A stretch of DNA of 64,000 bases from Planoprotostelium fungivorum (taxonomy: Eukaryota > Evosea > Variosea > Cavosteliida > Cavosteliaceae), in NCBI GenBank assembly GCA_003024175.1, contig MDYQ01000064.1, positions 50,614-114,613 of the forward strand. The letters run 5' to 3'. The notes beneath the pieces were generated by a model. It did not search any database. It was not told the origin of the DNA and saw nothing but the letters and a program-made list of their open reading frames with translations. Positions 649 through 64,000 of this stretch are shown one piece after another. A program made the translations under genes and the position numbers. How positions within the stretch are numbered: position 1 is the stretch's first letter; the number at the start of each line of letters is the position of its first letter.

Positions 649-3600
649 TTATTTCTTCTTCTGCGGTGGCTGCTGCTGCTGCTTCCTCCTCTGTAAGGCT
701 CTCTCCCTGGCCGCCTGCACCTTCGCATCATCGTTCCTCCTCGCGAACGCCTCCTCCGCATGACTCTCATCGTACTTGCTGTCCACGATCTCGGTCGAAA
801 CAGCCTGAGCCAATTTCAAGCTGCTGACAACCTACACTCTTCAGCACCTCATCTCATCTCATCCTCTACATGTCATCTTCCTCATTCACCTCTCTGACGT
901 CCCTGCCGACCAACTTGGAGACGTTCAAGTCCTTCTTCCTCTCGTGTAAGACCTCGAGCCACTCTTCTTTCACGCCGCAGACGGTTCGCATGAACACTCG
1001 GGTGGTCTGAACGAGATCACCATAGACGATCCACTCTGGAGCCTGTTGCTGTGGACTGAGTAGAACGGCTGATTGAGGGTGAACGAGGGCGAGCTGACCG
1101 CGGTTCATGACGACGTAAGTGTAGTCTTGGTATTGGTTGTGGGCGAGGTCTTCATCGTTGTTGATCTTTCTGATGGAGAAGTCAATGAATGAATGTGAAC
1201 GATGTAGAATGAATGTGAACGATGTAGAATGAATGTGAACGATGTAGAATGAATGTAAGGATGGAATGAATGTGGGATGGAATGAATATAGAATGAATGT
1301 GAATAGATGTAGAATGAATGTCGATATAGAATGAACGAGAATGAGAGAGATGAAGATGTGAGGGCTCACTCTCTCAGATGCTTCGGTTTCGCCTCTGGTG
1401 GTCGATTGAAGCGTTTCGCAGCATTGATGTACAATCCCTGACACAGTGCAAGAGACAACCTCTCCATCCTCTCACTGTATCTCCCCTGTCCCACGTCAGC
1501 TCCATGAGGTCTCAAAGTCTCACCTTCTTATCGGACAGGGACAACTTCTCCGTCTCCATGATCTCGTGGAGCTGCTTCCGGATGTCGTCGGCCTCTTTCA
1601 TGTGTCTGGGCTGAACAAAGTATTCGTTGCAGAATTTGTTGTCCTTGTGCGAATCTAACCAAGAGTCGTAGAGGTAGAGGAGAGCCACGTGATCACCCGT
1701 TATCTCATCGGGGCTGAATCGCGGTGAGAAGGTTTCATTGAAATGAGAAGGTTTCATTCGAATGAGAAAGTGCACTCACACGTGACCTGAGATGTCTTCG
1801 AAGAGCTCGCGACGCTTGTCATCCGATTTAGCTCTACCTTCCTGTTCATTAGTTAGCCACGATCCACATCTCATGATCATCGTTCTCATCGGTGCTCGTC
1901 CACGTGATGATGTTGTTGATGTTGTTGATGATGATCTCACTTTTGTCGATGGTCTATAGAAGATGTTCTCTATGGATAACATGGCCACCAAGGACAGCAT
2001 ATCCCTCGTACATCCAGTCTCCGAGGCCGCGACGAGCGCGCGGGAAAATTTGGGATCCAAGGGAAATTTCGCCATCTTCTCACCCACGGTGGTGAGGCTT
2101 CCGTCTGGTTGTAGAGCGCCGAGGAAGAATAATTGTTTCATCGCATCGATCAGCAGAACGGGATCAGGTGGGTCCAAAAATTCGAACCCCAAGATATCCC
2201 CGACCCCCATGGCCTGCGGAAATCTCAGCGAAAATCCGACGAAAATTCCACGGAAGAGTGAGAGATGTACGTACCTTCAGGGTGAGTATGACGTTACACA
2301 GATTCGATCTCTGAATCTCTGGTACAGTTGATGGAATCAAATTGTCATACTCCGTCTTCGTGTACAACCTTAAACCCCATCAGCACTCTCCCGCGAGATT
2401 TCCCCGAAATTTCCAGACTCACCGGTAGCATTTTCCCGGCCTCGTTCTTCCACCTCGACCGGCTCTCTGCTGTGCTGCCACTTGCGAGATGTAGACGACC
2501 TCGAGAGATTCCATGCCGGTAGTTGCATTGAATCCAGTCTGTTTGACGTAGCCGGGATCGATGACGAATACGACACCTTCCACCGTCAGAGACGTCTCTG
2601 CGATGTTGGTGGCCACGACGACTTTTCGAGTACCTGAGAGTTGTAGATGAGTACGTGGCAGGTTGTAGATCGATGAGATGGCGGGTTGTAGAATGGAGGT
2701 GAAATCACCGGTGGGAGCAGGTTGAAAGACTTTGGACTGTTCTCCGGGTGGCAGTGCTGCGTAGAGAGGTACGATGACGAGATCTTGCATGTCCGGTTTC
2801 CTCTTGTACAATTTCTGCATCTCCTTCTCCAGTCGATTGCACGCCTCTTCAATCTCATACTGTCCAGTTAAGAAGATGAGGATATCACCTGTCACACGTC
2901 ACACGTCTAATCGATGTCAAGTGTGGCCTCACCCTTTCCCTCCTCTTCGTGGATTCGAATGGCAGTTCTCACGGCCTTGTCGACGTAGTCCTTGTTGGGC
3001 TCGTCGAGGTAAAAAATGTCGACGGGGTAGCTTCTACCCGGGCAGAAGAAAACTCGCGAGTTGTTGAAGTAGTGGCTGAATTTTCCTTGGTCCAGCGTGG
3101 CCGAAGTGATGAGGAGCTGAGACGAAGTCAGTTTCCCGCGCGAAATTTCGGCGGGGTTTCTCGCAAATTCCGGATATCTTCTCGGGTATTTCGGTGAAAT
3201 TTCTTCACCTTCAGGTCCGGTCGTTTGGCCAGAGTCATTTTCATCAGGCCGAATAAAATGTCCGTGTTGACTGATCTCTCGTGTGCTTCATCCAATATGA
3301 TGACAGAGTATCTGTGTTCTATATTTAGAGAGAGGAAGGAGATGGATGTACCTCTTCAGCATGGGATCGAGCAGACACTCTCTCAGGAGGACACCATCGG
3401 TCATGTATTTGATCTTTGTCTTCGGACTCGTCTGATCTCCGAATCTACAAGAAGATTGAATCAAAGGGAACGTGAACATTTCAATCTGTTCTACATCGTA
3501 TGTACATTGAATGTAGAATATCTGAGGGGATACCATTCATATGAGATGATATAGTTCAAGAGGAGGCGAGTGGAGATGATTGAAATGATGGAATGAAACA

Positions 3601-61500: not shown

Positions 61501-64000
61501 ACTCACGGGGCAAGAGTCAGTTGTCTCAACAACTCTGGTGCTTCACCACTCCACTACGTGGTTAGAAAGAAGCCAGAGACGACGGGTGAGAACTGAACGT
61601 CGATCTACAACGAGACTCATTCTTCGCAGAGAAGAAGGAAGGATTGAGTCAACTCCGAAAGGCACCCGTGTCGGAAGCGGGTGAGATGTCGCATGAGATA
61701 TCGTTGATTGACGACGAGCAGAGGAACAATTCACGGCCATATTGAACATGTTGATTGAGAGAGGTGCCGCTCTCAACAGTCAAGATTTCAACGGAAACAC
61801 ACCTCTACACTCTGCCATCAACAATTCCAACGAAGTTGCAGCGAAGATCTTGTTGAACCGTGGAGCCCTCAATCAGAAGAACAAGTGGGTTGGCTCGTTG
61901 TAGATCGAACTGATGGGGGTCAGGAGGGGAGATTCGAGCCGAACTCTGGCCCAGGCGAGACAAGTGACAGGGACGGGTTCTTGGAACAGCGCTGATCCGA
62001 CCATGACCGACATTCTCCTCATCACTGAAGGTGAACCCGTCGATCTACAACGTGCCCTCCAGTACTGAAGAGAGGACAGGTTCGAAGATGGAGAAGATTT
62101 CAGATTTCAAGAAGGTGAATAGCAGGGAGGTGGAACAATACCTCAAGCAAGATCTGAAGAGGGGTGTCATGCCCTTCGATCACCACTTTTCTGGTATCGG
62201 TGAGTTCCACACGACGTCGTGATGATGAGGGTCGCTCATCGTCATGACATCATGAGCGTGACTGATGAGATGAACAGATTACACGGCCCTGGTGGGTATG
62301 GACCACGAGACGGGAGTCGTTCTCGTCTTCGTTGCCAAGGAGATTCCAGGTCAATCCACGAAAGTTCTCCTCCGTCACAAGAAGGTCAGTCCTCACACTC
62401 TCCCTTTCAAACTGACTCTACAGGGAGAAGAACTGTTCCTCTTGGAGAGGATCTCACCTGTCAGTGCACTGAGAATCTCACTCAACATGTTCCTCCAAGG
62501 ATTAGACTTTAAGATGACACCGGGAGAGAGCCTGACGAGGTCCATCCTGTTGTCGGAGAAGGAGCTGCACGCCAACGCAACTTCTGTTTCGATTCTTCTG
62601 GTCAGCGAGGCCGCGTACAATCTGAGGCTCGTACTGGCTGACGGTGAGTGACATCTCCCCGAGTTTTCTCACACGAGATAGAGTCGAAGCCTTCGGATGC
62701 ATACACGGAGTTTGTTCGTTTCATGGCTGGAACGAGAACGAGGGCCCTTTCCTTTGGATCGTTGGGGGCAGACAGCAGCACGAGAGAAGAGAAGGGAATG
62801 TCCGCTCACGCCATGGTGGCCTATCACCCCAAGCATCCTTCCACCTCCGTGGTCTTTTACAACATCCCCACTCTACCTCCAGAAGAGAGAAAGGTGAATC
62901 CTATTTGAAGGTGAAAAGAGACAGAAGGGCTGACGGTTTCAACAGGTACAGATCCAGGAGACACCCGTCATCATCGTTTACCTCGAAGCATCCAACATCG
63001 ACACGTCCATGCTACTCAACCACCACGCACGTGAGTCTCAACTCTATAAATAGAACTGAAATGGATCAGAGACGATGATTGTGGTTCAACCTGCGAAGAC
63101 GAGTGGAGAGTATCGACTGGCCGTTGTGTCGAGGAGCTCTTTTGGTGTCTACGAGCCGGCTCTGCCCTTCCCTCCCATCTTCTCACTCGATCAAGATTTC
63201 AAAAACTATCTCTTTGACAAACGTGAGACGACTCTTCTCTTCGTCCATGACATGGATGTCGTGTCATCTCATCATCATCTCATCATCATATCTGAAACGA
63301 AGAAAGTGATCAACGCTTGTGTTCTGGCCTCTTCTGCAGGTTTCTCTTTCATCTCGGAAGAGTTTAGAGACAGAGCCCTCTTCGAAGTCTACTCTGCTTC
63401 CAAGAACGCCACCACCACCGCCACCGACTTCAGTAACGTGAGTGATGCCATGACATCACACGGACACATCATGACATCCATCCAGGTACCAAAACACAAG
63501 ATGTACAAAGTGTATCCATCCAAGATCGTCGGAAGGTGAACATATCTACTGAATCTCTTTGTACAAACGAATTCACCGAATGTTTTGTACTGAACGTGAT
63601 GCAGTGGAGCCACCAGCATGGTGTTCCAAGCACTCAATCGACAGACGAAGAAGGAATATTGTGCCAAGATCGTAGACAAGTCCCTCATTTCAACTGATGA
63701 AGCGAGAGCGGCCGACAAGGAAGTACAGATCTTGGCGGAGATGTCACACCAGAATGTGATCAAGCTGATCGACAGTTACACGGTGGATAACTCCCTCTAC
63801 TTGGTCTTGGAGCTGTGAGTGTGGGGTGGGGTTGTGGAGCTGACCCGTTGTAGATGCAGGGGTGGGTCCATCTGGGAGGACGTGGAGCAGAACGGATTGT
63901 TCTCGGAGAAGCAGGCGGCGAATGTGATGTTTCAAGTGATGGATGCTCTACAGTACATTCATTCTAGGCACATCTCTCACAGAGATCTCAAGGTACACTT
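58549..64000 (+). CDS. RasGEF - SH2-like - ankyrin - kinase fusion, 3' partial
   Basis: One continuous series of exons, each joining in frame through short GT-AG introns. Order: a Ser-rich N-terminus (MPTRFHLFHTSRRSRADKQ); a RasGEF_N-like part (LLKYFFMAHTFIIDSHALLA); a RasGEF catalytic domain (HIACQMTLLDAQYFKKV, SLWIASELISRPKKKKELL, KVLRVAELFLRMKNLNGVAY, YFIPPFRVLILHICRL); an SH2-like block (DEAEEILRSARPKSFIVWAD, YCLSYTNRTLMVKHAHI); about four ankyrin repeats (NQTLLHIAAEKN, DETGWTALHVAADKHHLQVI, NGNTPLHSAINNSNEVAAKI); an unassigned region (DHHFSGIDYTALVGMDHETG); and a Ser/Thr kinase (IVGSGATSMVFQALN, YCAKIVDK, HISHRDLK) cut by the window edge. It would couple Ras activation to its own kinase output. 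Confidence 0.82.
59889..59923. repeat. Inverted palindrome half-sites with spacer
   Basis: GTCTACAACG and CGTTGTAGATG flank a 14-nt C-rich spacer, filling most of one intron of the RasGEF fusion gene. Confidence 0.8.

Follow-up and report, generated by a model that had tools for sequence, protein, structure and literature searches.

We analyzed a window of 64,000 nucleotides from the genome of Planoprotostelium fungivorum (C457:50614-114613; the genome comprises 36.86 Mb in 471 contigs). Its predicted genes include relatives of SMC2, of ABCA transporters, of mitochondrial carriers, and of helicases, and many of their introns contain the half-site CTACAACG/CGTTGTAG, either alone or as an inverted repeat (a dyad). 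The first-pass annotation of the window had reported more than 40 whole or half copies of a near-palindromic repeat, in both orientations and in unrelated genes. The repeat is real: we found 45 half-sites on the two strands, while 100 dinucleotide shuffles gave 0.71 on average and 3 at most (0 of 100 reached 45). Its presence in both orientations in unrelated genes (such as the SMC2-like gene, the ABCA-like transporter, and the mitochondrial carrier) holds as well, and the half-site coordinates were correct to within a few bases. The exact 20-mer that had been described, CATCTACAACGTTGTAGATG, does not occur in the window, and the 14-mer CTACAACGTTGTAG occurs once. Among the sites listed as full copies, the one at 13002 stands; those at 14412, 19758, 30877, and 52597 are dyads of the form CTACA-N4-TGTAG with other central bases; another, at 13144, was missed; and the site at 59889, supposedly a full copy with a spacer, consists of two half-sites at a distance of 21 bp. 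All 6 dyads of this form in the window lie in predicted introns.

Where the motif falls

Our density counts refer to an annotated sample of 314 kb (the window and 250 kb from elsewhere in the same genome), in which genes, introns, exons, and sequence outside genes are the output of a gene predictor. The predictor was trained on long open frames and uses donor, branch, acceptor, and length signals, with no term for the motif. At the middle setting of the intron penalty, it gave 1319 introns totaling 74 kb; the median intron length is 44 nt. The predicted introns of the SMC2-like gene are supported by an alignment of its product to PDB chain 9f5w_A that spans residues 1-1171 and, in the part shown, has no gaps longer than one residue. 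Exon lengths have no sharp peak, so we rejected the idea of nucleosome-sized exons. Absolute motif densities are biased upward because 14 of the 20 blocks from contig C1 contain listed dyads; the contrast between introns and exons is less touched by this choice and is visible in the window by itself.

The motif was about ten times as dense in introns as in exons (2.46 per kb in introns, 0.25 per kb in predicted exons, and 0.21 per kb elsewhere). With three different intron penalties, we obtained 1.96, 2.46, and 2.91 motifs per kb of intron; the corresponding exon densities were 0.25, 0.25, and 0.26 per kb. Of the 241 matches in the sample, introns hold 182, exons 49, and sequence outside genes 9; 1 is mixed. 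In the window, 32 of the 45 half-sites are in predicted introns and 1 straddles an intron edge, so the earlier statement that nearly all copies are intronic is right about the majority but too strong, as 8 are in predicted exons and 4 are outside predicted genes. (Two of the latter, at 20337 and 20522, resemble missed introns by eye.) The first-pass annotation had proposed to compare introns with exons and spacers; the densities are not equal, yet coding sequence also has more copies than expected. In the spliced coding sequences of 98 complete models, there were 36 forward and 10 reverse copies, versus 8.5 and 0.47 in synonymous shuffles.

Genome-wide, the nine-base word TCTACAACG has 12,082 copies (6040 and 6042 on the two strands), versus 562 for the reversed word, and the 14-bp dyad CTACAACGTTGTAG has 750 copies, versus 0 for its reversed control. 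Among the 8-mers with 30 or more occurrences in 264 kb, CTACAACG had the greatest excess over a trinucleotide model (45.6-fold).

The motif is also rare near the 5' ends of genes. Across 43 genes that are 2 kb or longer, it was present in 2 of the 108 introns located within 600 bp of the start, while 16.3 were expected from permutation within genes. Two controls were reduced in the same zone (CATC, 6 vs. 13.5; other palindromes, 6 vs. 13.9), so about twofold of the depletion may reflect prediction error. Only the depletion of CTACAACG clearly exceeds the reduction of the controls.

Genes carry the motif unevenly. We rejected an even spread, as the dispersion index was 1.72 and 36 of the 83 genes that have four or more introns were motif-free, versus 22 expected. 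Two 10-kb blocks (L027 and L029) with 48 and 30 predicted introns had no motifs, and the first 116 kb of C1 (1-116000) had just 2 plus-strand sites despite 30 intron-like matches to GTGAGT...CAG (a pattern that is only about twice as common there as its reversed control). We saw no enrichment upstream of genes among the 9 matches outside predicted genes. A promoter subset is possible because, for 5 of these 9, a minus-strand model starts 28-71 bp away.

Anatomy of the site

The word is sharply specified. In introns, we found 131 intact copies of TCTACAACG, versus 0.25 in shuffled sequence, and single-letter variants were rare at 7 of the 9 positions: positions 1-6 and 8 together had 22 variants, while position 7 had 28 and position 9 had 26. 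Decayed copies are thus few. The dyad is just as strict in its spacing. For CTACA and TGTAG in introns, a spacer of 4 was seen in 45 cases, and every other spacer from 0 to 12 was seen at most once. Genome-wide, CTACA-N{2,6}-TGTAG matched at 2098 places, and 50 of the 51 that were listed have a spacer of 4; the reversed control, which is itself an inverted repeat, matched at 1043 places. The center of the dyad is usually CG. Fixed dyad spacing and sharp specificity, as expected for a double-stranded DNA site of a dimeric protein, are thus both present.

Away from 3' splice sites, 45 copies are forward and 51 are reverse relative to the gene, with identical flank patterns, so the motif has no fixed orientation relative to transcription. 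Another 42 reverse copies end exactly at a predicted 3' splice site and are hence fixed in orientation; the flank provides a branch point resembling TGAC, and the TAG comes from the motif. Two of these fall where the alignments to SMC2 and ABCA3 have no gaps (Table 1). Half-sites that cannot fold outnumber dyads.

Neighboring copies also show a preferred direct spacing. There are 336 direct pairs genome-wide; the 100 that were listed include 56 isolated pairs, of which 29 are spaced by 22-24 bp. Of the 29 forward-reverse neighbors within 150 bp, 22 are the dyad itself and 7 are other inverted pairs. Genome-wide, inverted pairs with a distance of 10-40 bp number 71, and the 50 that were listed have no single sharp spacing. 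On these grounds we rejected longer elements bounded by the motif as terminal repeats, although elements beyond this range were not sought genome-wide. Separately, the half-site occurs in short tandem arrays at C8:38995-39104 (17 bp), C47:133391-133503 (21 bp), C49:132864-132961 (23 bp), and C40:42766-42842 (23 bp), with periods taken from the coordinates of the matches.

Table 1. Dyads, motif-bearing introns, and half-sites outside predicted genes in the window
Feature	Position	Strand	Remarks
Dyad CATCTACAACGTTGTAGACG	13002..13021	.	Window's only exact 14-bp CTACAACGTTGTAG, at 13005; predicted intron 12995-13043 (+)
Dyad CATCTACATCGATGTAGATC	13141..13160	.	Predicted intron 13132-13175 (+)
Dyad CATCTACATCGTTGTAGATG	14412..14431	.	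Predicted intron 14396-14443 (-), mitochondrial-carrier gene
Dyad AATCTACACTGTTGTAGATG	19756..19775	.	Predicted intron 19628-19784 (-)
Dyad AGTCTACAAGGTTGTAGACG	30876..30895	.	Predicted intron 30865-30922 (-)
Dyad TATCTACAATGTTGTAGATG	52596..52615	.	Predicted intron 52591-52629 (+)
SMC2-like intron	35481..35518	-	Ends in TGACGCGTTGTAG, a reverse half-site that provides the 3' splice site with its TAG; at residue 916.67, gap-free in SMC2 alignment
ABCA-like intron	44555..44594	-	Ends at the 3' splice site in the reverse half-site CTGACGCGTTGTAG; at residue 633.67, gap-free in ABCA3 alignment
ABCA-like intron	45013..45053	-	Forward half-site; sole exact motif coincidence in the 24 positions common with paralogue L035
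Predicted intron	59883..59921	+	Forward half-site 59893; reverse half-site 59914, which runs to the 3' splice site
Helicase-like gene intron	2634..2708	-	TCTACAAC in three copies, at intervals of 23 and 22 bp and never with a G after it; bounds by eye from the model
Half-site outside predicted genes	11693..11700	.	43 bp from minus-strand gene-model start
Half-site outside predicted genes	22000		28 bp from minus-strand gene-model start

Other palindromes exceed shuffles in introns, with milder specificity: TGACGTCA (64 vs. 6), GAAATTTC (50 vs. 4), and TCACGTGA (28 vs. 4). Their counts per 10 kb follow those of CTACAACG (rho = 0.54, 0.44, and 0.36, respectively; for intron base content, rho = 0.11). 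TGACGTCA has 0 copies in the 42.6 kb outside predicted genes, and CACGTG alone has a between-gene density close to its intron density. A near-dyad, CTACAACGCTGTAG, lies in the coding sequence of three paralogous exons (C1:310196, 314053, and 318270, in the L021/L019 region). The window also contains perfect tandem arrays of GATGGTGAT (period 9, 14157-14203) and CATCATCATCACTGA (period 15, 49922-50046); partial matches to the former region number in the dozens across the rest of the genome. Finally, the contigs C298/C393 and C270/C397 gave equal-score matches at identical or equally shifted coordinates, which suggests that they are duplicated or allelic pieces of the assembly.

What the motif might be

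If the motif acted as an RNA stem, then we would expect tolerance of G·U pairs and several loop sizes, including odd ones; in introns we found neither, small excesses of odd loops aside. Even-centered inverted repeats with arms of 6 were in excess (80 vs. 17.5 in shuffles), while odd-centered ones were barely so (19 vs. 16.2). Imperfect dyads show no preference for wobble pairs, because A·C mismatches are at least as frequent as G·T among one-mismatch even dyads (63 A·C vs. 38 in shuffles; 45 G·T vs. 30 in shuffles). The orientation balance, the parity, and the wobble results therefore point to double-stranded DNA rather than an RNA hairpin.

Comparisons of paralogues indicate how long the sites persist. 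Two ABCA-like paralogues (64% identity) have 24 intron positions in common. The motif is at 5 of these in copy A and at 6 in copy B, so that 10 of the 24 introns have it in at least one copy, and it coincides at 1, versus 1.25 by chance. (At one more position, copy B has a variant that differs by one letter.) The presence of the element is thus distinct from the presence of the intron. Among three paralogues that we take to be sialate O-acetylesterase-like, all three have the motif at the 3' end of the same intron, and two have it in another intron; the first two share 9 intron positions and both of their motif introns coincide. Other comparisons of paralogues with CTACAACG gave one concordant and three discordant cases. 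Sites thus turn over inside introns that are older than themselves, with some retained. The sharp consensus suggests that selection, not neutral decay, has shaped the word.

We consider it about an even call that the repeat is a sequence-specific site on double-stranded DNA, bound by a putative and probably homodimeric protein, and selected along gene bodies, mostly in introns, with avoidance of 5' ends. Of the possibilities raised in the first-pass annotation, a protein-binding site is the one that the data favor, given the sharp specificity, the single dyad spacing, the orientation balance, and the direct spacing of 22-24 bp, along with the intron bias, the 5'-position bias, and the coding excess. 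The putative protein would recognize the half-site TCTACAACG (extended, TYCATCTACAACGMKNYA) or the dyad TCTACA-N4-TGTAGA. Selection would keep sites along gene bodies, with avoidance of the first ~600 bp of genes, and sites would lie mostly in introns of ~40 nt because coding constraint restricts them in exons. Where a reverse site lies just 3' of a branch point, its own TAG would be used as the 3' splice site. The role of these sites may be in chromatin or in transcription elongation along genes.

Several observations weigh against this proposal. The ABCA-like paralogues conserve the motif no better than chance, large intron-containing regions lack it, errors of prediction may account for some of the 5' depletion, and a general DNA-binding factor need not show such a low intergenic density. 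Also, some odd-centered structures are in excess: odd centers with arms of 7 and one mismatch (88 vs. 65), and, to a small extent, odd loops (six-base stems, 15-19 vs. 11-13; examples are 61 vs. 48 and 19 vs. 13).

More tentatively, the motif might be one of a few families of gene-body punctuation (TCTACAACG dyads, GATGACGTCATC, GAAATTTC, and GTCACGTGAC). Thousands of dyad sites in tiny introns, rare at gene starts, would be bound by putative dimeric proteins that organize chromatin or elongation, and introns would be reserved room for DNA-level architecture.

Alternatively, the motif could be an RNA element: a dyad hairpin in the pre-mRNA, or a splicing-factor site, that aids the removal of very short introns. 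The strong intron bias, the 42 reverse copies that form the 3' splice site, and the ability of perfect dyads to fold would all fit, but we think that this is unlikely. Both orientations share flanks, coding copies occur in both orientations, and the splicing-enhancer hairpin that had been suggested is disfavored by the restriction to 4-base spacers, the near-absence of odd-centered excess, the lack of a G·U preference over A·C, and the surplus of half-sites that cannot fold. Nor does the motif seem to compensate for weak donor sites, an idea we rejected as donor scores of motif introns and other introns were not clearly different (P = 0.095).

We give a low probability to a target of DNA modification, in which a methyltransferase would recognize the dyad, with its usual CG center, in gene bodies. 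Matches to C5-methylase domains are present on two contigs (C72 and C271), and the depletion at gene starts is reminiscent of gene-body methylation. However, there is no sign of heavy methylation, because the observed/expected ratio of CpG is 0.88-0.96 across introns, exons, and spacers; the word is longer than a CpG enzyme needs; and the co-distributed palindrome GAAATTTC has no CpG. It is similarly improbable that the motif is the footprint of an introner or miniature transposon, with introns born from, or invaded by, an element that has the motif as its terminal repeats. The two orientations, the palindromic form, and the reverse end that brings a branch point and a 3' splice site are consistent with such an origin, and the accessible text of PMC7789003 describes introners with 8-20-nt inverted repeats in Amoebophrya. 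However, when introns of 30-120 nt were compared all against all by BLAST, long matches were confined to local duplicates and the others were modules of 20-28 nt. Dyad introns are no longer than motif-free introns (median 44 vs. 45 nt). The paralogue discordance, the few decayed copies, and the scarcity of non-dyad inverted pairs also count against both the introner and the small mobile repeat of the first-pass annotation. Molecular drive, in which the word would spread through selective DNA uptake or biased conversion in the manner of bacterial uptake sequences, would suit a short, sharp, strand-balanced word that is single or in inverted pairs and also in coding sequence, but it too is improbable, as the between-gene density should then be at least the intron density and is instead ~12 times lower, and the motif is depleted at gene starts.

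If the double-stranded DNA site is real, then introns of this lineage would have a widespread function, in many unrelated genes, at the level of DNA rather than RNA. The word would be precise enough for isolating its protein, and it would offer a test case for the retention of very short introns and a caution against labeling every intron-linked repeat an introner.

Comparison with known systems

We found no description of this motif in titles or abstract openings; most subscription papers were outside our reach, so it may be published. The best actin matches of this genome, to chains from Acanthamoeba and Dictyostelium, together with its compactness and many introns, suggest an amoebozoan. 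Protostelium aurantium is intron-rich. The accessible text of PMC10639083 discusses the minor introns of this variosean.

The motif resembles the sites of general regulatory factors of the Reb1, Abf1, and Cbf1 type in being a sharp, short, double-stranded DNA word, present as a dyad or half-site, free of orientation, and in very many copies. Sites for these factors cluster in promoters. In contrast, this motif is in introns and gene bodies and is rare at gene starts. Bacterial DNA uptake sequences are, like this motif, strand-balanced and found singly or as an inverted pair. As far as the accessible text of PMC1939737 goes, they are also over-represented words, of about 9 bases. This motif differs in being eukaryotic, concentrated in introns, and poor between genes. 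Finally, the introners of Micromonas, fungi, and Amoebophrya, as presented in the accessible parts of PMC9860276 and PMC7789003, are likewise repeats tied to introns of unrelated genes, in both orientations and with inverted repeats. Here, unlike in those accounts, only a word of 8-18 bp is held in common, intron length is unchanged, and the motif turns over within older introns.

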